DNA from: Akkermansiaceae bacterium
Lineage (GTDB): Bacteria > Verrucomicrobiota > Verrucomicrobiia > Verrucomicrobiales > Akkermansiaceae
Assembly (NCBI GenBank): GCA_947491475.1
Contig: CANLKN010000013.1
Coordinates: forward strand, 1 to 52,724
Length of the DNA: 52,724 bases
Direction: 5' to 3'
Of the stretch, positions 15,487 through 32,690 are shown in pieces. The first letter of the stretch is position 1. The number at the start of each line of letters is the position of its first letter. Under the pieces are notes generated by a model. The model had not been told where the DNA came from, searched no databases, and saw only the letters and a program-made list of their open reading frames with translations. The translations under genes were made by a program, and so were the position numbers.

Positions 15487-17268
15487 TCAGACCTTGCCGT
15501 AGAGCGGGCCGTAGTTCTGGCATGCGCGGAAATCGGCTCCTTCCAAATCGGCGGTGCCGAAGGCGCGCCAGGCACTGGGCCGGAACACTCGCTCCTCGCC
15601 GACGTTGTGCATGTAAACCGGGATGCGCAGCATCGAGGCGAGCGTGAGATACAAATGGCCGACGTGGCCGCAGGTCATCACGCAGTGGTTGGCACCCCAG
15701 TGGTTCATCACTTCGTAGGCGCTGCGGAAAGCCCCTTCGCCCGTTAGAACAGGCGCGAACCAAGTGGTCGGCCAGGTTGGGTTGGTGCGTTGGTCGAGCA
15801 CGTCGTGCACATCATCCGGCAGATCAATGGTGTGACCTTCGGCGATTTGCAGAGCAGGGCCCAGGCCATCGACGAGGTTGAGGCGAATCATCGTGGCGGG
15901 CATGCCGCCCTTGGTGCGGTAGCGGGTGCTCCAGCCGCCGCCGGGGAAATACTCGGTGATGGATGGATGCCAGGTGGTGGCATTGAGACACTTCTTCACT
16001 TCCGCGTCGGAAATTTCCCAGAAGGGCTTCATCGTCGGAACTCCCTTTTTCGTCTGCTCGCCGGTGCCGTCAAGCGCGGCCGGGCCGGAGTTGATGAGAT
16101 GCAGAATGCCATCGCCGACGAGCGGGTGTTCCACTTTCCGGCCGCTGGCTTTTTCGATGGCATCAATGCTCCAGTAGGTGCGCAGGTCGGCGAAAATCTG
16201 CGCGGTGTTGGTGAGAAGCCAGCCGAAAAGCATGCCCGCGCCGTTGAGTGCGTCGTTTTCGGTGGCGACGATGTAAGGTGCGCGCTTGCCGTTCCAATCG
16301 AAAGACGTGTTGAGAATCGCCTCCATGAAGTCGCCGTTGGGGAAGTGGTCGGTCCACTGGCGCTGGCCTTGGAAACCTGCGGCGATAGCATTGTGGCCGT
16401 GTGCCTGCTCGCCGAGTTTCATTTTCTTGAGCACCGGATTTCCGACCATCAAGTCGCGGGCGATGAGTGCCATTTTCACGCTGTCCTCCCACTCGGTATC
16501 GAGTTGTTCGCGCGAGCGGGTGGTTTGCGGCGAGTTGTAATCCTTGCCTTCCTTGCAGTGTTTTTTGACCCAGGCGAGGGCGGTTTCATACTCGGCCTTG
16601 TCATACTGGCCCTTGCGCATGCGGCCGGCGATCTCGCTCATGTCGATGGATTCGACACGCATGCCGAACCACTTTTCCCAGAGTTTGGTATCCACCACGG
16701 AGCCGGCGATGCCCATCGAGGTGCCGCCCATCGAGAGATAGGATTTTCCGCGCATCAGCGCGACGGCGAGGCCGCATTGGGCGAAGGAAAGCAGTTTTTC
16801 CTCCACATCGGCGGGCATCTTCGTGTCGTTGGCAGCCTGCACATCCTTACCATAAATGCCGAATGCGGGCAGGCCCTTCTGCGTGTGGCCGGCGAGCACC
16901 GCGGCCAGATAAACCGCGCCGGGACGCTCGGTGCCGTTAAAGCCCCACACGGCTTTCGGCGTGTGCGGATCCATGTCCATCGTTTCGGAGCCGTAGCACC
17001 AGCAAGGGGTGACTGTTAGAGAAACACCGACGTTGCTGAGCTTGAACTTGTCGGCGCAGGCGGCGGCTTCCCGCACGCCGCCGATGCAGGTGTCGGCGAT
17101 CACGCACTCGACGGGCGTGCCGTCGGGGTAGCGGAGTTTGGAAATGAAAAGTTCGGCCACGGATTTGGCCTGCTGCATGGTGCGTGCTTCGAGTGACTCG
17201 CGGACGCCGCCGAGGCGGCCGTCGATGGTCGGGCGAATGCCGATTTTTGGATAGGATGCTTTTTTCAT
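15487..17268 (-). CDS. fucI: L-fucose isomerase
   Basis: The 593-residue product matches the usual ~590 of FucI. It starts [18 protein letters not shown] and contains [15 protein letters not shown], an [17 protein letters not shown] block around residue 340 with the acidic metal ligands, and a C-terminal [18 protein letters not shown] region with metal/active-site histidines. It interconverts L-fucose and L-fuculose (also D-arabinose and D-ribulose) using Mn2+ in the cytoplasm. A divergent AraC-type regulator starts 175 bp away, a common layout for sugar catabolism. Fuculokinase and aldolase genes are not in the window. Confidence 0.95.
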
Positions 17269-21470: not shown

Positions 21471-21533
21471 TCCCCGAAGTAAAAGCTGGGACGAGAGCCT
21501 TCGGGTCGTGTATTGGCTTTTCTCCATCTACCT

Positions 21534-22472
21534 ATGAAACGTCTCTTCATCTCCGGCCACCGCGGCATGGTCGGCTCCGCCCTCGTCCGCGAAGCTGACA
21601 GGCTCGGCGACTTCGACCTGATCACCGCCAGCCGCTCCGAACTCGACCTCTGCGACCAGTGCGCGGTATTTGATTATCTATCATCCAACAAACCGGAAGC
21701 CGTGATCATCGCCGCGGCCAAGGTCGGCGGCATCCACGCCAACTCGACCTACCCCGCCGATTTTATTTACGAAAACCTCACCATCGCCGCAAACCTGGTA
21801 GAAGGCAGCCGCCGCGCCGGTGTGAAACGCGTCTTGTTTCTCGGCTCATCCTGCATCTATCCGAAACTCGCGCCGCAGCCGATGCCGGAAGACTGCCTGC
21901 TCGGCTCGCAGCTCGAACCGACCAACGAGGCCTACGCCATCGCCAAAATCGCCGGCTTGAAACTCTGCCAGCATTACCGCGCCCAGCACGGGCTGCTGTA
22001 TCACAGCGCCATGCCCACCAACCTGTATGGCCCCGGCGATAACTATCACCCGGAAAACTCCCACGTCATCCCCGCGCTGATCCGCCGTTTTCATGAAGCG
22101 AAGGAACGCGGCGACGCCTCCGTCACCATCTGGGGCACCGGCACACCGCGCCGCGAGTTCCTCCATGTGGACGACCTCGCCGCCGCCTGCTTCCACCTGA
22201 TGACCCTCGACAACCCGCCCGACTGGGTGAACGTCGGCACCGGCGAGGATCTTACGATCCTCGAACTCGCACAACTTGTCGCGGCGACCACCGGCTTCGC
22301 GGGAGATATTCTAACAGACCCGTCCAAGCCCGACGGCACGCCGCGCAAGCTGCTTGATATTTCCAAGATCGCGGCCACGGGCTGGGCTCCCGCCATTCCG
22401 TTCGAGGACGGCCTCGCCGCCGCCTATCAGGATTTCAAGAAGTCGCTCGCCGCGGGCGGGGCGAGGCTTTGA
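21534..22472 (+). CDS. fcl: GDP-L-fucose synthase
   Basis: The 312-residue product is called from ATG 21534 ([18 protein letters not shown]). It has Rossmann motif [30 protein letters not shown] and the catalytic Y-x3-K in [10 protein letters not shown], all diagnostic for the epimerase-reductase WcaG/Fcl. It converts GDP-4-keto-6-deoxy-D-mannose to GDP-L-fucose with NADPH. gmd, which makes its substrate, follows 76 bp downstream on the same strand. It is the first gene after the ops-like leader. Confidence 0.96.
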
Positions 22473-22548: not shown

Positions 22549-23664
22549 ATGAAAAAAGCACTCATCACCGGCATCACCGGACAAGACGGCTCCTACCTTG
22601 CCGAGTTCCTGTTGGGAAAAGGCTACGAGGTCCACGGCATCAAGCGCCGGGCCTCGCTCTTCAACACCCAGCGCGTGGACCATATCTACGAGGACCCGCA
22701 TGTCGAGAACTCGCGCTTCCGCCTCCACTACGGCGACCTAACCGACAGTTCCAACCTGACCCGCATCCTCAGCGAGGTGCGGCCGGATGAAGTCTATAAC
22801 CTCGGCGCGCAGTCGCACGTGGCTGTCTCCTTCGAGGCACCGGAATACACCGCCGATGTCGATGCGCTCGGCGCGCTGCGTCTGCTGGAGGCGATTCGTT
22901 TCCTCGGACTGGAGAAAACAACCCGTTACTATCAGGCTTCCACTTCCGAGTTGTATGGTTTGGTGCGGGAAATCCCGCAGACCGAGAAGACGCCCTTCCA
23001 CCCGCGCTCGCCCTACGGAGTCGCCAAGATGTATGCCTATTGGATCACGGTGAACTACCGCGAGGCCTATGGCATGTATGCCTGCAACGGCATCCTCTTC
23101 AACCACGAGTCGCCGCGCCGCGGCGAGACCTTCGTCACCCGCAAGATCACCCGCGGAATCGCCAACATCGCCCAAGGCCTCGAATCCTGCCTCTTCCTCG
23201 GCAACATCGACTCTCTGCGCGACTGGGGCCACGCCAAGGACTACGTCCGCATGCAGTGGATGATGCTCCAGCAGGAAACGGCCGACGATTTCGTCATCGC
23301 CACCGGCAAGCAGATCTCTGTCAGGGAATTCATCCGCATGTCAGCCGCCGAAGCCGGCATCACGCTGGAGTTCCACGGCGAGGGCGTCGATGAAACCGCC
23401 ACCGTCCGCTCCGTTGATCCCACCATCGCCCCGGCGGTTAAAACCGGCGATGTGATCGTGCGCGTTGATCCCCGCTATTTCCGCCCGGCGGAGGTCGAGA
23501 CCCTGCTCGGAGATCCCTCCAAGGCGATGGAGAAACTCGGCTGGAAACCCGAAATCACCGTCGAGGAAATGTGCGCGGAAATGGTCGCCTCAGACCTTGA
23601 GGAAGCCAAGCGCCACGCCCTTCTCAAGGCCCACGGCCACCATGTGTCCGTGTCCAAGGAGTGA
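22549..23664 (+). CDS. gmd: GDP-mannose 4,6-dehydratase
   Basis: The 371-residue product starts [20 protein letters not shown] (GxxGxxG of GMD). It includes [42 protein letters not shown] and the catalytic Y-x3-K in [12 protein letters not shown], then [18 protein letters not shown], the family's cofactor/dimer signature. It dehydrates GDP-D-mannose to GDP-4-keto-6-deoxymannose, first step to GDP-L-fucose. Length matches the family. With fcl it makes a complete two-step pathway; a GDP-mannose pyrophosphorylase is not in this window. Confidence 0.97.
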
Positions 23665-23718: not shown

Positions 23719-23994
23719 ATGCCCACGATTTCCTACACCGAAGCCCGCGACCGTCTGGCGGGCATCTGGGACCAGGCGGTCGCCAGTCGTGAACCGGTCA
23801 CCATCGACCGCCGCGGCCACGAGTCGATGATCTTGGTTCCCGCCGGCGAATGGGAGGGCTTGGTGGAAACCGCCCACCTGCTCCGTTCGCCCGCCAATGC
23901 CCGCAGGCTACTGGCGGCGCTCCACCGTCTCGAACAAGGCGAGGGCCTGCAGCTCACTGTGGACGCCCTGGCGGCAAAGACCGGTGCCCAATGA
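23719..23994 (+). CDS. yefM: YefM/Phd-family antitoxin
   Basis: The 91-residue product MPTISYTEARDRLAGIWDQAV then SREPVTIDRRGHESMILVPAGEWEGLVET is the YefM fold: an N-terminal DNA-binding dimer domain that reads a palindromic operator, and a C-terminal tail that neutralises the toxin. Its stop overlaps the start of a YoeB-type toxin (ATGA), the standard translationally coupled order. The module lies between gmd and the sugar kinase fusion, in the direction of the operon. Confidence 0.9.
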   Translation: MPTISYTEARDRLAGIWDQAVASREPVTIDRRGHESMILVPAGEWEGLVETAHLLRSPANARRLLAALHRLEQGEGLQLTVDALAAKTGAQ

Positions 23995-24260
23995 ATCCCG
24001 CAGACCGCAGCCTTGTCTTTGACCGCGACTTCCTCGAGGATTTGACTCATTGGGTCGCCACTGATCGCAAGACGGCACTGCGGATTCTGGAACTGGTCGA
24101 GGCGATCCGGCGCGATCCATTCGCTGGAATCGGCAAACCCGAACCGCTGCGTCATCTTGGACCGGGGATTTGGTCACGCCGCATTACCCAGGAACACCGC
24201 CTCGTCTATCGCGTGAAGGACGACCGCATCCTCTTCGCCCAAGCCCGCTATCATTATTGA
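23991..24260 (+). CDS. yoeB: YoeB-family mRNA interferase toxin
   Basis: The 89-residue product starts at ATG 23991, overlapping the antitoxin stop. YoeB signatures: FDRDFLEDLTHWVATDRK, then LVEAIRRDPFAGIGKPEPLR, then WSRRITQEHRLVYRV and the C-terminal RYHY, containing the catalytic Glu, Arg, His and terminal Tyr of the RelE-fold ribosome-dependent endoribonuclease. All key residues appear intact, so the module looks functional. Confidence 0.92.
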   Translation: MNPADRSLVFDRDFLEDLTHWVATDRKTALRILELVEAIRRDPFAGIGKPEPLRHLGPGIWSRRITQEHRLVYRVKDDRILFAQARYHY

Positions 24261-24308: not shown

Positions 24309-25391
24309 ATGAAAAAAGTATTCGTCTCCGGTTGTTATGACATCCTCCATGCCGGCCATCTCCAGTTCTTTGAGGAGGCCCGCGCGCTTGGCGACTACCT
24401 GATCGTTTCCTTCGCCTCCGCCGAGGTGCTGTGGCACCACAAGCGCCGCAAACCTTCAATACCCGACGAGCACAAGCAGGCGCTATTGCTGGGACTGCGC
24501 ATGATCGACGAGGTGATCATCACCCACGGCCACAAGGAAGGACTCGACTTCGAAGATGACTTCCTGCGCATCCAGCCCGATTTCCTGATCGTCACCGAGG
24601 ACGACAAATACGGTCAGGCCAAACACGAACTCTGTGCCAAGGTCGGCGCAAGATATACCATCCTCCCCAAAACTCCGCCGAAGTTCGCACCGGTCTCCAC
24701 TTCTTCGATCGTGCGCTGGGTGCAGGCCCCCACCGAGGCACCGCTGCGGGTGGACTTCGCCGGTGGCTGGCTAGATGTTCCGCGCTTCGCCCGCCCCGGT
24801 GAATATATCGTCAACTGCGCCGTCTCGCCGCTCGTTTCACTGCGCGAGTGGCCATATGAAAAACAAGCAGGCCTCGGCGGCAGCGGCGCATGGGCCTTGC
24901 TCAACGGCCGCGACGGCGTGGATTCGGAAATCGACCTCGGCGTCGGCTGGCAGGACCCCGCTGTGATCCGCGAAACCGGCCTCTGCGTTTGGCGCTCCGG
25001 CCCGAAACCGGTGCTCGATTTCAAACACAACGGCGATTTTCTAACAGGCCGAATGGCGATCTACTGGACTGGCACCAGCCACGACACACCCGGTGTGGCC
25101 GGTCACCCGCGCGACTACGACCGCATCGCGCAAAGCTCGCGCATCGCCCGCGACGGAGTGTTGCATGCCGACATCCACAAGCTCGCCGAAGGCATCACTC
25201 TCTATCACGCCACCCAGCTCGACGAAGGCATGGAGCCGCTGACCGAAATCGAAGGCTCCATCGCCCGCAAATACTGCGGCGGCGGCTACGGCGGCTACGC
25301 GCTCTATCTCTTCACCGAACCCGCCGCCCGCGACACCGCCGTCACCAACACGCCGGAGCTCCGTGCCGTCGAGCCCTTCTGCCGGGTATGA
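24309..25391 (+). CDS. Cytidylyltransferase-like / GHMP-kinase fusion
   Basis: The 360-residue product joins two domains. Residues 1-~135 form a nucleotidyltransferase fold: VFVSGCYDILHAGHLQFFEEA with the HxGH signature at 14-17, and a C-terminal STSSIVR that corresponds to the ISSTxIR motif. Residues ~141-345 resemble a GHMP kinase: APLRVDFAGGWLDVPRF (N-terminal signature as in HddA-type sugar kinases), phosphate loop GLGGSGA (188-194) and the C-terminal KYCGGGYGGYALYLF. The kinase half is ~100 residues shorter than usual, so an internal segment is reduced. Such a fusion would phosphorylate a sugar at C1 and activate it with a nucleotide. Heptose or fucose are candidates by context; the substrate is not determinable. 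The fold assignment is fairly safe, the reaction is inferred. Confidence 0.72.
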   Translation: MKKVFVSGCYDILHAGHLQFFEEARALGDYLIVSFASAEVLWHHKRRKPSIPDEHKQALLLGLRMIDEVIITHGHKEGLDFEDDFLRIQPDFLIVTEDDKYGQAKHELCAKVGARYTILPKTPPKFAPVSTSSIVRWVQAPTEAPLRVDFAGGWLDVPRFARPGEYIVNCAVSPLVSLREWPYEKQAGLGGSGAWALLNGRDGVDSEIDLGVGWQDPAVIRETGLCVWRSGPKPVLDFKHNGDFLTGRMAIYWTGTSHDTPGVAGHPRDYDRIAQSSRIARDGVLHADIHKLAEGITLYHATQLDEGMEPLTEIEGSIARKYCGGGYGGYALYLFTEPAARDTAVTNTPELRAVEPFCRV

Positions 25392-25474: not shown

Positions 25475-26356
25475 ATGCAAAGCCCTTGGAAAGCCGGAAT
25501 GTCGAAAATGGACCACTCATTCGCCATCCATTCACCGGTTCCCCCGACGGTGGAAACCTACCTTTCTACGCTCGCTCAGCAGGAACACCCACCCAGCATG
25601 ATCACCCTCCCCGTCATCGGCCTGCCCATCGCCGCCACCGACTATGCGGGCGCGGTGAAATGGGTTCTCACACATGCTGCGAAGGCGGGCCGAGCCTTCG
25701 CGGTCGAAGCCGCCAACACCCACGTCGCCGCGCTCGCCCGCAGCGATGCCTCATTCGGCGGGAGCATGCGCCGTTTCGACCTGATCGTCCCCGACGGCAT
25801 GCCTTTGGTATGGGCGCTCAACCGGCAGCTGCCTCCGGATCAAAAACTCACCGACCGCGTCTATGGCCCAACCCTGATGTTGGAAACGCTCAAGGCCACC
25901 GAGAACCAGCCGAAGTTCCGCCATTTCCTGTTAGGTGGCAGGCAGTCCACGCTCGACAAGCTCCACGATGTCTTCGCCGATCGTTTTCCCGGAGCCGCGA
26001 TCGCCGGCATGCACTCGCCTCCCTTCGGCGAGTGGCAGCCTGATGAATTCGACCGCGTCTGCGACATGATCCGCGGCTCTGGCGCCAATCTCATCTGGGT
26101 CGGCCTCGGCTGCCCGAAACAGGAACACTGGATCGCCCGCCACAAGGACCAGCTCCCCCCCGGCGTCTATTTCGGCATCGGCGCAGCCTTTGCCTTCCAC
26201 GCCGGAGAGGTGAAACAATCGCCGCCCCTGCTGCAGAAAATCGGCCTCGAATGGGCCTACCGCCTCGCCATGGAACCGCGCCGCTTGTTCAAACGCTATT
26301 TCACTTACAACACGCTTTTTCTTTATCTTCTGCTTCGTGACCGCATGCGGAACTGA
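25475..26356 (+). CDS. WecG/TagA/CpsF-family glycosyltransferase (GT26)
   Basis: The 293-residue product (ATGs at 25508 or 25601 could be the true start; the core begins LPVIGLPIAATDYAGAV). GT26 motifs: VEAANTHVAALA, LIVPDGMPLVWALN with the catalytic Asp, and IWVGLGCPKQEHWIARH near residue 210, then FGIGAAFAFHAGEVKQSPP. The family transfers ManNAcA, ManNAc or another sugar from a UDP donor to an undecaprenyl-linked acceptor at the membrane, as in ECA, teichoic acid and capsule assembly. The C-terminal FKRYFTYNTLFLYLLLRD is the usual membrane-associating tail. Confidence 0.9.
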   Translation: MQSPWKAGMSKMDHSFAIHSPVPPTVETYLSTLAQQEHPPSMITLPVIGLPIAATDYAGAVKWVLTHAAKAGRAFAVEAANTHVAALARSDASFGGSMRRFDLIVPDGMPLVWALNRQLPPDQKLTDRVYGPTLMLETLKATENQPKFRHFLLGGRQSTLDKLHDVFADRFPGAAIAGMHSPPFGEWQPDEFDRVCDMIRGSGANLIWVGLGCPKQEHWIARHKDQLPPGVYFGIGAAFAFHAGEVKQSPPLLQKIGLEWAYRLAMEPRRLFKRYFTYNTLFLYLLLRDRMRN

Positions 26357-26413: not shown

Positions 26414-27802
26414 ATGAACATCCAATCCATCTGCTGCCTCGGCGCCGGCTACGTCGGCGGCCCCACCATGGCGATGATCGCCGCCAAGTGCCCCGACATC
26501 AGCGTCACCGTCTGCGACATGAACCAACAGCGCATCGACGCCTGGAACTCCGATGATCTGCCTGTCTATGAACCTGGCCTCGACGCCGTGGTCGCCTCCG
26601 CCCGCGGTCGCAACCTGCATTTCACTACCGATATCCGCAACGCCATCGCTGCTGCGGACTTGATCTTCGTTTCGGTCGGCACGCCAACCAAGTCCTACGG
26701 CATCGGCGCCGGACGCGCCGCCGACCTGCGTTATGTCGAGGGTGCCGCCCGCCTGATTGCAGAGGTTTCCCACGGCCACAAGATCATCGTCGAGAAAAGC
26801 ACCATTCCGGTCAAAACCGCCAGCGCCATCAAGACGATCATCTCCGCCAATTCCACCAGCGGTGCCACCTTCGAGGTGCTCTCCAATCCTGAGTTCCTCG
26901 CCGAGGGCACCGCCGTGGCCGACCTCGAAAACCCGGACCGCATCCTAATCGGCGGCGAGACCACCGATTCCGGAAACGCCGCTGTCGAAGCGCTGGCCTC
27001 GATCTATGCCCGCTGGATTCCGCGCGAGCGCATCATCACCACCAACTTGTGGTCCTCCGAACTTTCCAAACTCGTTGCCAACGCCTTCCTCGCCCAGCGC
27101 ATCTCATCGATCAACTCGATCTCCGCCCTCTGCGAAGCCACCGGCGCAGACGTCGATGAGGTCGCGCGCGCCATCGGCTCGGACTCGCGCATCGGCCCCA
27201 AGTTCCTCAAAGCCTCGGTCGGATTCGGCGGGTCCTGTTTCCAAAAAGACATCCTCAATCTGGTCTATCTCTGCGAATCCTTCGGCCTGCCGGAGGTCGC
27301 CGACTACTGGCGGCAGGTCGTCCAGCTCAACGACTGGCAGAAATCCCGCTTTGTCGAAAAAATCGTCCGCACACTCTTCAATACGGTCAACGGCAAGCGC
27401 ATCGCCATCCTCGGTTTCGCCTTCAAGAAAGATACCAACGACACCCGCGAGTCGCCCGCCATCCAGGTCTGCGCCGACCTGCTGCGAGAACACGCCCACG
27501 TCGCCCTTTACGACCCGCGCGTGGAACCTGAAATCATCCTCAAGGAACTAGCCGACGCAAAAGTCCCCGCCAGCCTGATCGCATCCAACTTGGAGATCCA
27601 CACCGATCCCTACGCCGCCCTCAAGCATGCCCACGCGCTGGCCACCCTCACCGAGTGGGACGAGTTCCGCGATCTCGACTTCGCCCGCATCCACGACCTC
27701 ATGCTCAAGCCCGCCTTCGTCTTCGACGGTCGCGCCATCCTGCCCACCTCCGCCCTGAAATCCCTCGGCTTCGAGACCTTCACCATCGGCAAGGGTCAAT
27801 AA
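26414..27802 (+). CDS. ugd: UDP-glucose 6-dehydrogenase
   Basis: The 462-residue product has N-terminal [16 protein letters not shown] (NAD binding), the longer eukaryote-like insertion [39 protein letters not shown], and the catalytic cysteine in [11 protein letters not shown] (~residue 277). A C-terminal domain has [16 protein letters not shown]. The sequence type resembles animal/plant UGDHs more than the short bacterial Ugd. It oxidises UDP-glucose to UDP-glucuronate with 2 NAD+. With uxs at 19196 it provides UDP-GlcA and UDP-Xyl. Confidence 0.96.
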
Positions 27803-29531: not shown

Positions 29532-30437
29532 ATGCCCAACTACCACCTTAGCCACCTCGCCCAACTCGAAGCCGAAGCCATCTTCGTGCTACGCGAAACC
29601 GCCGCCCAGTTCCAGAATCCGGCCCTGTTGTTCTCCGGCGGCAAAGACTCGATCGTCATGGCCTGGCTCGCTAAAAAAGCCTTCTGGCCCGCCCGCATGC
29701 CCTTCCCGCTGGTCCACGTCGATACCGGCCACAATTTCACCGAAACCATGACCTACCGCGACGAGTTCGTGGACCTCATCCGCGCCAAGCTGGTCGTCGG
29801 ATTGGTCCAGGAATCCATCGACAGCGGCCGCGTGGTCGAGGAAAAGGGCCCCAACGCCTCGCGCAACAAACTCCAGACCGTCACCCTGCTCGATACCATC
29901 GAGAAACACCAATACGACGCCTGCCTCGGCGGCGGCCGCCGCGATGAGGAAAAAGCCCGCGCCAAGGAGCGCTTCTTCTCGCATCGCGACGATTTCGGCC
30001 AGTGGGACCCCAAAAACCAGCGGCCCGAACTCTGGAACCTTTTCAACGGCCGCAAGCACCCCGGAGAGCACTTCCGCATCTTCCCGCTCTCAAACTTCAC
30101 CGAGATGGACATCTGGATGTATATCCAACGCGAGGAAATCCCCCTCCCCTCTATCTACTTCGCCCACGAGCGTGAAATCTTCGAGCGCAACGGACAGCTT
30201 CTCGCCGTCACCGATTTTCTCAAACCCCAGGACCACGAAAAAGCCGAAAAACGCATCGTCCGCTTCCGCACCATCGGCGACGCCACCTGCACCGGCGCCG
30301 TCGAGTCCAACGCCTCCAACCTCGACGAGGTCATCGCCGAAGTCGCCGCCGCCCGCCAGACCGAACGCGGCACCCGCGCCGACGACAAGCGCTCCGAAAC
30401 CGCCATGGAGGACAGGAAAAAAGAGGGTTATTTTTGA
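29532..30437 (+). CDS. cysD: Sulfate adenylyltransferase subunit 2 (small)
   Basis: The 301-residue product starts MPNYHLSHLAQLEAEAIFVL. The PP-loop SGGKDS is at 35-40 in the ALLFSGGKDSIVM context, then PLVHVDTGHNFTE, CLGGGRRDEEKARAKER, EHFRIFPLSNFTEMDIW and the C-terminal RTIGDATCTGAVES, matching CysD along its length. With the GTPase CysN it makes APS from sulfate and ATP. A heptamer array precedes the start. Confidence 0.96.
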   Translation: MPNYHLSHLAQLEAEAIFVLRETAAQFQNPALLFSGGKDSIVMAWLAKKAFWPARMPFPLVHVDTGHNFTETMTYRDEFVDLIRAKLVVGLVQESIDSGRVVEEKGPNASRNKLQTVTLLDTIEKHQYDACLGGGRRDEEKARAKERFFSHRDDFGQWDPKNQRPELWNLFNGRKHPGEHFRIFPLSNFTEMDIWMYIQREEIPLPSIYFAHEREIFERNGQLLAVTDFLKPQDHEKAEKRIVRFRTIGDATCTGAVESNASNLDEVIAEVAAARQTERGTRADDKRSETAMEDRKKEGYF

Positions 30438-30536
30438 GTGTTGCCCAAAAATAACAGTTATTAGTGATTTGTGATTCGATATTAGGTTCTCTTCCCCAAT
30501 CTCCAATTTCAAATTCAAAACACCCCTTAACCACCC

Positions 30537-30725
30537 ATGCAGCCTCCCACCCAAGCCTCCATCTGGAAAGCGATGCCGCTGTCGGAGAAATACAATCTCC
30601 TCGCCGCCAGCATCCGCCAAGCACGGGAGCTCAAACGTATCGGCATCCGGATGCGCCGCCCGAATGCCTCACCGGAGGAAGTCGATAAAGAACTCGCCCG
30701 CATCTGGCTCCATGCAAGACCCTGA
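30537..30725 (+). CDS. Small helical protein paired with a nucleotidyltransferase
   Basis: The 62-residue product is helical and basic: SEKYNLLAASIRQARELKRI, then RMRRPNASPEEVDKELARIWL. It overlaps the following nucleotidyltransferase gene by 14 bp on the same strand. Short helical proteins of this kind are commonly encoded just upstream of minimal nucleotidyltransferases, a two-gene arrangement reminiscent of toxin-antitoxin pairs. No DNA-binding motif is evident and no family name is offered. Confidence 0.6.
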   Translation: MQPPTQASIWKAMPLSEKYNLLAASIRQARELKRIGIRMRRPNASPEEVDKELARIWLHARP

Positions 30726-31275
30726 TCTCATCCGCCTGTTCGTCGTCCCATTGGAAAACGCGGGCATCCGCTACATGATCACCGGTTCGATCGCCAGTTC
30801 GATCTATGGCGAACCACGCAATACTCTGGATATCGACCTCGTCGTGCTGCTCGGATCAAACCAGATCCCCCAACTGCCCGGACTCTTCCCCGAAGACGAA
30901 TTCTACCTGCCACCCGCCGACGTGATCGCCATCGAGTCCCGCCGCGAAGCACACGGCCATTTCAATATCATCCACCACAACACAGGCCTCAAGGCGGACA
31001 TCTATCTCTCCCGCAACCACCCATCATTGCCATGGGCTCTCCAAAAAATCCGCCGTGTAGAAACCCCTTCCACTCCAATCAATCTTGCCCCACCGGAATA
31101 CGTGATCATCCACAAGCTTGAATTCTTCCGCGAAGGGGGCTCACAAAAACACCTCCGCGACATCGCAGGCATCATCGAACAACAGGACCTCGACCAAGAA
31201 TTCCTGGACCGCTCCATAGACGCCCTCGGACTCCAACCCCAGTGGCAGGCAGCCAATGCCCTCACCTGGCGATAG
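30712..31275 (+). CDS. Minimal nucleotidyltransferase-superfamily protein
   Basis: The 187-residue product is called from ATG 30712 (MQDPDLIRLFVVPLENAGIR). It has the nucleotidyltransferase core GSIASSIYGEPRNTLDIDLVV, i.e. G-S followed by D-I-D metal ligands, and the later ADIYL strand with the third Asp. The C-terminal part (PPEYVIIHKLEFFREGGSQKHLRDIAGI) is the helix pair seen in DUF6036/AbiEii-like nucleotidyltransferases. It likely transfers a nucleotide to an RNA or protein; it may form a module with the preceding 62-residue protein. Its stop codon TAG lies inside the first GATAGTG heptamer of the downstream array. Confidence 0.72.
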   Translation: MQDPDLIRLFVVPLENAGIRYMITGSIASSIYGEPRNTLDIDLVVLLGSNQIPQLPGLFPEDEFYLPPADVIAIESRREAHGHFNIIHHNTGLKADIYLSRNHPSLPWALQKIRRVETPSTPINLAPPEYVIIHKLEFFREGGSQKHLRDIAGIIEQQDLDQEFLDRSIDALGLQPQWQAANALTWR

Positions 31276-31378
31276 TGGATCGTAGATAGAAGATCGTAGA
31301 TTGTAGATAATTGATAGCGAAACACTCACCCACGATCCACGATCCACGATCCACAATCCACAATCCACAATCCACAAT
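31271..31378. repeat. Large inverted heptamer arrays (GATNGTR / CCACRAT)
   Basis: The left arm 31271-31319 holds seven consecutive 7-mers: GATAGTG, GATCGTA, GATAGAA, GATCGTA, GATTGTA, GATAATT, GATAGCG. The right arm 31330-31378 holds seven CCACRAT units (three CCACGAT, four CCACAAT), the inverse of GATYGTG, so the arms can pair imperfectly over most of their length around an ~10-nt centre. The left arm begins inside the stop codon of the upstream gene. It is the longest array in the window. Confidence 0.75.
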
Positions 31379-31384
31379 CTCTTC

Positions 31385-31445
31385 TCTTGTGTCTTGAAGT
31401 CTTGTGTCTCTCTTCCCCTTCACTGATAACCGATAACTGATAACA
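31385..31445 (+). repeat. TCTTGTG and GATAACN heptamers abutting the cysN start
   Basis: TCTTGTG, TCTTGAAG, TCTTGTG (31385-31406), then a spacer, then GATAACC, GATAACT, GATAACA (31425-31445), the last unit directly touching the cysN ATG at 31446. This leaves no Shine-Dalgarno sequence. Confidence 0.65.
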
Positions 31446-32690
31446 ATGGACCTCCTCCGCTTCTCCACCGCCGGCTCCGTCGATGACGGCAAATCCACCC
31501 TCATCGGCCGTTTGTTATACGATTCCAAATCCATCTTCGAGGACCAACTCGAAGCCATGGAGGAATCTTCGCGCCGCCGCGGCGACGAAAACGTCAACCT
31601 CGCCCTTCTAACAGACGGCCTCAAGGCCGAGCGCGAACAGGGCATCACCATCGACGTCGCCTACCGCTACTTCGCCACGCCCAAACGCAAGTTCATCATT
31701 GCCGACACCCCCGGCCACATCCAATACACCCGCAACATGGTGACCGGCGCATCCACCGCCAACCTCGCCATCATCCTCATCGACGCACGCAAAGGCGTCA
31801 TCGAGCAGACCAAGCGCCACAGCTTCATCGCCAACCTGCTGCGCATCCAGCACCTCGTCGTCGCCGTCAACAAGATGGACCTAGTCGATTACTCAGAGGA
31901 GGTTTACAACCAGATCGTCAGCGATTTCCGCGACTTCGCCTCGCGCCTCGACAACATCGTCGAGATCACCGACATCCCGATCTCCGCACTCAACGGCGAC
32001 AATGTGGTCGAGAAATCCACCAACATGCCGTGGTATCAGGGCCCCACCTTCCTCTATCACCTCGAACACGTCTATGTCGGCGGCGAGGAAAACCACGTCG
32101 ATGCCCGCTTCCCCGTCCAGTGGGTGATCCGCCCGATGTCCGACGAATGGCATGACTTCCGCGGCTACGCCGGACGCGTCGCCGGCGGCGTCTTCAAGCC
32201 CGGCGATGAAGTCACCGTGCTGCCCTCCGGTTTCAAATCGGTCATCACGGCCATCCACACCGCCGACGGCGAGATCGAGGAAGCCTTCGCCCCGCAATCC
32301 GTCTGCCTCACCCTCGCCGATGAGATCGACATCTCGCGCGGCGACACCCTGGTCAAGGCCAACAACCCGCCAGCGGTAAGCCAGGACATCGAGGCGATGA
32401 TCTGCTGGTTCTCACCCAAGCCGATGGCCCACCGCGCCAAGCTCATCGTCCGCCACACCACTCAGGAAACCAAGGCCATCGTCCAGGAGGTCAAGTATCA
32501 CGTGGACATCAACACGCTCCACAAGATCGAAGGCGTGGACAGTTTTGAGATGAACGACATCGGCCGCATCACCATGCGCACCGCCGTGCCGCTCATCCAT
32601 GATGCCTACCGCCGCAACCGCAGCACTGGCTCCTTCGTCCTCATCGACCCCGGCACCAACGAAACCGTCGCTGCGGGAATGATCGTGTAG
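31446..32690 (+). CDS. cysN: Sulfate adenylyltransferase subunit 1 (GTPase)
   Basis: The 414-residue product starts MDLLRFSTAGSVDDGKSTLI with G1 GSVDDGKS (10-17). G2/switch region EREQGITIDVAYRYF, G3 DTPGH, G4 NKMD and G5 SALNG follow, then two beta-barrel domains. No APS-kinase fusion is present; CysC is separate at 27895. The GTPase couples GTP hydrolysis to APS formation by CysD. The gene is intact, ending VAAGMIV. A second copy of its last 100 bp occurs 804 bp downstream, beyond a vapBC-like module. Confidence 0.96.
   Translation: MDLLRFSTAGSVDDGKSTLIGRLLYDSKSIFEDQLEAMEESSRRRGDENVNLALLTDGLKAEREQGITIDVAYRYFATPKRKFIIADTPGHIQYTRNMVTGASTANLAIILIDARKGVIEQTKRHSFIANLLRIQHLVVAVNKMDLVDYSEEVYNQIVSDFRDFASRLDNIVEITDIPISALNGDNVVEKSTNMPWYQGPTFLYHLEHVYVGGEENHVDARFPVQWVIRPMSDEWHDFRGYAGRVAGGVFKPGDEVTVLPSGFKSVITAIHTADGEIEEAFAPQSVCLTLADEIDISRGDTLVKANNPPAVSQDIEAMICWFSPKPMAHRAKLIVRHTTQETKAIVQEVKYHVDINTLHKIEGVDSFEMNDIGRITMRTAVPLIHDAYRRNRSTGSFVLIDPGTNETVAAGMIV
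32587..32686 (+). repeat. cysN 3'-end direct repeat, left copy
   Basis: These 100 bp encode the last residues of CysN. They match 33391-33490 at 95 of 100 positions; all five differences (CGC/CGA, ACT/ACC, GCT/GCC, GCG/GCT, GGA/GGG) are third-position and synonymous. The repeats bracket the vapBC-like genes. Confidence 0.9.

Follow-up and report, generated by a model that had tools for sequence, protein, structure and literature searches.

What does a protein activate that joins a nucleotidyltransferase of the HIGH superfamily to a GHMP kinase within 360 residues, and is its shortened kinase still a kinase? The question arises from a 52,724-nucleotide stretch of an Akkermansiaceae genome (contig CANLKN010000013.1, here called the window), in which the fusion gene lies close to genes of L-fucose metabolism. 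A first-pass annotation had described an HxGH cytidylyltransferase (residues 1 to about 135) followed by a shortened GHMP kinase, and had suggested a different kind of sugar-activation enzyme with heptose-7-phosphate, L-fucose or glucuronate as candidate substrates. Its premise that the known activators use other combinations is correct: Fkp couples a PF07959 pyrophosphorylase to a GHMP kinase, and HldE a PfkB kinase to a nucleotidyltransferase.

Domain architecture of the fusion

The open reading frame begins with ATG and is uninterrupted (Table 1). Full-length homologues with 61-86% identity occur in 37 of 99 related genomes, 275 relatives were retrieved from GTDB contigs, and both active sites are conserved in all 40 relatives that were aligned; this breadth and motif conservation far exceed what a chance reading frame would give. 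The fusion gene is common across Verrucomicrobiota, and copies that MAG labels place beyond this phylum, for example those labelled Planctomycetota, are putative occurrences there.

The N-terminal half is, by its modelled structure, a HIGH-superfamily nucleotidyltransferase of the HldE/TagD fold. PF01467 is the sole Pfam match in the fusion (residues 6-98, 5.9e-10), the model superposes on 3glv with a Z score of 17.2 and an rmsd of 1.6 over 118 residues, and residues 1 to about 136 match GCT, HldC, TagD and related nucleotidyltransferases (Z 16-17, rmsd 1.6-2.7). Besides HAGH, the residues K45, D98, K121/T122 and S130 are conserved. The best NCBIfam match of this half is rfaE_dom_II (TIGR02199), at 54.2 bits against a cut-off of 181.5, and glycerol-3-phosphate cytidylyltransferase scores 41 bits. 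"Cytidylyltransferase" is apt as the name of the PF01467 superfamily, but the name does not give the base that is actually used. A plasmid search returned matches to the nucleotidyltransferase half only, in TagD/RfaE2-like genes. The window genome (G000) also carries a stand-alone TagD-like cytidylyltransferase gene (L144, contig C78, 5443-5952).

Pfam gives no GHMP match (PF00288 or PF08544 above the gathering score) for residues ~140-360 of the window protein; in relatives, PF08544 scores 21.8 against a threshold of 21 in a type-2 fusion (L146) and 37.5 in the type-3 protein (both types are described below). The fold emerges from structure prediction. AlphaFold2 models from 40 sequences (pLDDT 84.8) and from 57 sequences (pLDDT 88.3, with 80-82 around the ATP loop) agree, with a pTM of 0.68 that leaves the domain orientation unfixed. 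Residues 127/142-359 match GHMP kinases with Z scores of 18-20 over 205-223 residues, among them mevalonate kinase, galactokinase, WcbL and the fucokinase of FKP; the scores for FKP, WcbL/HddA, galactokinase and mevalonate kinase are alike, and the comparison does not discriminate between them. All three GHMP motifs (RVDFAGGWLD, GLGGSGA and GGGxGGYA) are conserved in the fusions. R592 and S719 of FKP are 127 residues apart and their equivalents here 45, which makes the window kinase about 80 residues shorter between motifs 1 and 2. Judged by the model, the C-terminal half is a shortened yet complete GHMP kinase and not a pseudokinase: the predicted fold is whole, the catalytic residues are present, and the loss of ATP- or sugar-binding residues that a pseudokinase would display was not seen. 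The division into domains made by the first-pass annotation is borne out by PF01467 and the fold matches, as are its GLGGSGA and GGGYGGYAL motifs.

Table 1. Features of the fusion gene, its neighbours and related loci (window positions unless a locus is named)
Feature	Position	Strand	Basis or remark
Fusion gene, stop included	24309..25391	+	360 aa; homologues
HIGH-superfamily nucleotidyltransferase domain, residues 1-135	24309..24713	+	PF01467; fold matches; conservation
HAGH, residues 14-17	24348-24359	+	nucleotidyltransferase active site
Compact GHMP kinase domain, residues 140-360 (predicted)	24726..25388	+	fold Z 18-20
Kinase motif 1, RVDFAGGWLD; R147, W154, D156 = FKP R592, W599, D601	24747..24776	+	alignment to 9iip/5yys; invariant 57/57
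Kinase ATP loop, GLGGSGA, 188-194; S192 = FKP S719	24870..24890	+	S192 invariant 57/57
GWQD, 213-216; Q215/D216 = FKP Q761/D762, proposed general base	24945..24956	+	invariant 57/57; roles PMC11982464
Kinase motif 3, GGGYGGYAL, 324-332; G326 = D-arabinose-resistance site in Amuc_1591	25278..25304	+	conservation; PMC13313206
fucI, L-fucose isomerase	15487..17268	-	PF07881/PF07882/PF02952; TIGR01089 990.7 bits
fcl, GDP-L-fucose synthase	21513..22472	+	NF047922 469.5 bits, slightly below cut-off 500
gmd, GDP-mannose 4,6-dehydratase	22549..23664	+	TIGR01472 577 bits, cut-off 415
Phd/YoeB-type toxin-antitoxin pair, between gmd and fusion	23720-24260
WecB/TagA/CpsF-family glycosyltransferase	25475..26356	+	TIGR00696
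UDP-glucose-6-dehydrogenase-type nucleotide sugar dehydrogenase	26414..27802	+	TIGR03026
cysD, cysN, sulfate adenylyltransferase, in polysaccharide cluster	29532-32690
Subtype 1b fusion with adjoining type-2-like nucleotidyltransferase	L143 5919-7524; L154 5267-6863; L155 5987-7582; L175; L176; L177

A fucose pocket of the FKP type

Local alignment places residue 144 onward on FKP residue 589 onward, without gaps through motif 1, and the GWQD motif is equated with FKP G759-D762 by motif, not by continuous alignment. The counterparts of FKP R592, W599, D601, S719, G759, Q761 and D762 are identical in all 57 fusions of the three types, and T602 is replaced by V157 in the window protein. The crystal structure of FKP assigns the following roles to these residues: proposed base (D762), stabilisation of the transition state (R592), stacking on fucose (W599) and binding of the fucose hydroxyls (D601, T602, Q761 and D762, with T602 contacting O3) (PMC11982464). 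In alignments, the position of W599 is a glycine in all three solved families of heptose-7-phosphate kinases (represented by WcbL and by proteins from Bacteroides and Campylobacter). The HddA/WcbL model NF049969 gives no match to the fusion up to an E-value of 10, and W154 is invariant, not Gly. The PF07959 pyrophosphorylase domain is absent from the window protein and from its genome.

Gene neighbourhood and distribution

In the window, fcl and gmd are followed by the toxin-antitoxin pair, the fusion, a WecG-type transferase, the nucleotide-sugar dehydrogenase, cysD and cysN; the last two suggest a sulfated polymer. ORFs related to the toxin-antitoxin pair occupy the same place in several genomes of the window genus and are missing in others. 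On the same strand and at most 4 kb from the fusion, gmd is found in 45 of 80 GTDB loci, in at least four gene orders across genera (gmd-FUS, FUS-gmd-fcl, gmd-fcl-x-FUS and gmd-fcl-x-WecG-FUS), the variation extending over Persicirhabdus (L080), Rubritalea (L084), L072 and an Opitutaceae MAG (L094). Type-2 fusions (G268, G191, G173; L134) are directly followed by gmd with short gaps, and fucI adjoins a type-1 fusion in L164 and a type-2 fusion in L169. The common denominator of the linkage to gmd/fcl and to fucI is L-fucose, which points to this sugar. Neighbours unrelated to fucose are found in Opitutales, in Planctomycetota-labelled copies and in many Akkermansia copies; around the Akkermansia copy linked to murJ, and in many Opitutae, the flanking genes give no hint of function. 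In three Opitutales loci (L088 6604-9933, L089 841-4170, L090 6575-9904) the type-1 fusion has immediately upstream of it a gene for a 1110-residue protein, which combines an FKP-kinase-like region (residues 184-557) with a weak UDPGP domain.

Across 241 genomes drawn evenly from the phylum, a fusion of any type is present in 62, FKP (scored as PF07959) in 43, and both in none, so that FKP is found in 0 of 62 fusion genomes vs 43 of 179 others (Fisher p ~1e-6, treating the genomes as independent though they are related). Both kinds occur within one family, in different genomes, only in three families (f9, f26, f34), and the exclusion is partly confounded by phylogeny. In 8 of 39 type-1 genomes gmd is absent or below the cut-off, and these genomes would depend on salvage.

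Types, split and decayed forms

Type 1, to which the window protein belongs, is held together by the identity range given above within the window genus and its close relatives, and occurs also in Akkermansia, often in two copies, and in Opitutae. Type 2 (~380 residues, ~25% identical, from other families and classes) combines the same two domains with the same pocket residues, and type 3 is a single protein of 445 residues (L137) with a full HddA/FKP-like kinase. One locus (L145) is split, with a kinase-like gene beside a double-nucleotidyltransferase gene. In seven genomes of the genus Akkermansia, a subtype 1b keeps its kinase residues intact while D11 of the nucleotidyltransferase has become N or S and K45 has become Y; an intact stand-alone nucleotidyltransferase gene, 57-60% identical to that of type 2, adjoins the fusion in six of the seven and lies on another contig in G149. 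To judge from the sequences, this looks like natural complementation, in which the nucleotidyltransferase step would be needed and types 1 and 2 would be interchangeable.

Amuc_1591 and D-arabinose toxicity

Enzymes of this kind are already known in outline. In a study of June 2026, D-arabinose-resistant mutants of A. muciniphila were selected, and Amuc_1591, the sole gene changed in all of them, was altered in 12 of 12 (V176G, G326E, frameshift); L-fucose or mucin restored growth under D-arabinose (PMC13313206). The authors describe the protein as a putative fucose-nucleotidyltransferase whose second domain resembles a fucokinase, and place its gene in one transcription unit with murJ. L103, the A. 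muciniphila counterpart in our set, comes from the same setting and shares 69% identity with the window protein over the full length, and V176 and G326 are present in both with the same numbering. The murJ neighbourhood is matched in L105, L078 and L152, the neighbour in L105 being MurJ by TIGR01695; the window copy sits instead in a polysaccharide operon with gmd and fcl. D-Arabinose is a kinase substrate of FKPs, which can also form GDP-D-arabinose (PMC12732313), and this fits toxicity acting through Amuc_1591. The passages of PMC13313206 consulted neither propose a kinase reaction explicitly nor contain enzymology; what is added here is the intact kinase, the proposed role across the family and the naturally split form. 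A literature search for a fusion of nucleotidyltransferase and GHMP kinase found nothing relevant, and PMC13313206 surfaced via FKP.

Proposed reaction and alternatives

We consider it likely that the fusion is a compact bifunctional L-fucokinase/L-fucose-1-phosphate nucleotidyltransferase, an analogue of FKP in which a domain of the HldE fold stands in for the pyrophosphorylase. Taking L-fucose as the inferred substrate, the GHMP kinase would act before the transferase, using ATP to phosphorylate C1 of the free sugar to beta-L-fucose-1-phosphate, with R147 in the role of its FKP counterpart, S192 serving Mg and D216 as the base. The HldE/TagD-fold domain (HAGH, K45, K121, S130) would then move NMP from an NTP to give NDP-L-fucose, most probably GDP-L-fucose, for the fucosyltransferases of a surface polysaccharide or LPS. 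GDP is the weakest step that we infer, and our expectation is evenly balanced: it is a guess, since we know of no GTP-using sugar-1-phosphate enzyme in the HldE/TagD nucleotidyltransferase superfamily, and this fusion would to our knowledge be the first GTP-specific one of that fold. The transferase may instead prefer the same base as the rest of its superfamily and make CDP- or ADP-L-fucose for a fucosyltransferase class of its own, which we think possible but doubtful; we know of no such fucose donor.

The fusion would work like FKP but by domain content is not an FKP. It shares with the Bacteroides fragilis enzyme (NF009948, PF07959) a C-terminal GHMP kinase, the same fucose-binding side chains and nucleotide transfer in the same chain; FKP has ~950 residues, a PF07959 pyrophosphorylase with a beta-helix in place of the HIGH-superfamily domain, and an unshortened kinase. 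HldE/HldC have a nucleotidyltransferase of the same fold and the closest, sub-cut-off profile, but HldE uses a PfkB-type kinase, which the fusion lacks, in reversed domain order. HddA/WcbL belong to the same GHMP branch, with the GGxxD motif 1 and an xQD motif, but are stand-alone proteins of ~340 residues with Gly at the stacking tryptophan of FKP and the fusions. The pairing matches neither Fkp nor HldE, and supports the idea of a different sugar-activation enzyme; of the sugars first suggested, L-fucose is strongly favoured over heptose-7-phosphate and glucuronate. The sole support for glucuronate was the Ugd-type gene close by, whose product forms UDP-glucuronate de novo.

The pocket cannot separate L-fucose from L-galactose or D-arabinose, since FKP tolerates C5 substituents, and the same chemistry might yield NDP-L-galactose or NDP-D-arabinose. 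A type-2 fusion (L148 7171-9376, minus strand) and the split form (L145 6062-8782, minus strand) adjoin epimerase genes that by eye resemble GDP-mannose 3,5-epimerase and have only generic SDR matches in NCBIfam, and D-arabinose toxicity acts via Amuc_1591; the linkage of type 1 to gmd/fcl and fucI favours fucose, and in A. muciniphila L-fucose protects against D-arabinose (PMC13313206), which leaves other L-galacto-configured sugars improbable. The literature on bacterial GDP-mannose 3,5-epimerase that was searched has no mention of heptose or of adjoining kinases of this sort.

Synthesis of NDP-heptose, by an HddA-like kinase acting on D-glycero-D-manno-heptose-7-phosphate and an HldE-like transfer to heptose-1-phosphate, we regard as very improbable. 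The rfaE_dom_II match and the fold match to WcbL agree with it, as does an Akkermansia locus (L139 2227-10592) that holds hldE, gmhA, gmhB, a heptosyltransferase-like gene and a type-1 fusion, but that genome has its own complete HldE, W154 stands where heptose-7-phosphate kinases have Gly, and fusion genes are in general linked to gmd/fcl rather than to gmhA/gmhB. The same LPS locus contains two MsbA-like ABC transporter genes. The fusion as a replacement of HldE was rejected, as the Akkermansia genome G324 contains both. Least credible, in our judgement, is a C-terminal pseudokinase that binds a sugar or sugar-phosphate and presents it to the nucleotidyltransferase, a reading near the wording in PMC13313206: the lack of about 80 residues between motifs 1 and 2 relative to FKP and a score below all Pfam GHMP models speak for it, but we set it aside on the invariance of every mapped catalytic residue in 57 of 57 fusions, and subtype 1b, which loses nucleotidyltransferase residues and keeps those of the kinase, is the opposite of what it predicts.

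Significance

Pfam and NCBIfam name no such enzyme, and their models detect only a generic transferase domain. If L-fucose activation is indeed its function, the fusion would be a second, independent solution to fucose salvage in Verrucomicrobiota and would offer chemoenzymatic synthesis an enzyme less than 40% of the size of FKP. It would also explain how the reported toxicity of D-arabinose comes about, and how members of the Akkermansia family without gmd could fucosylate their surface from scavenged fucose.
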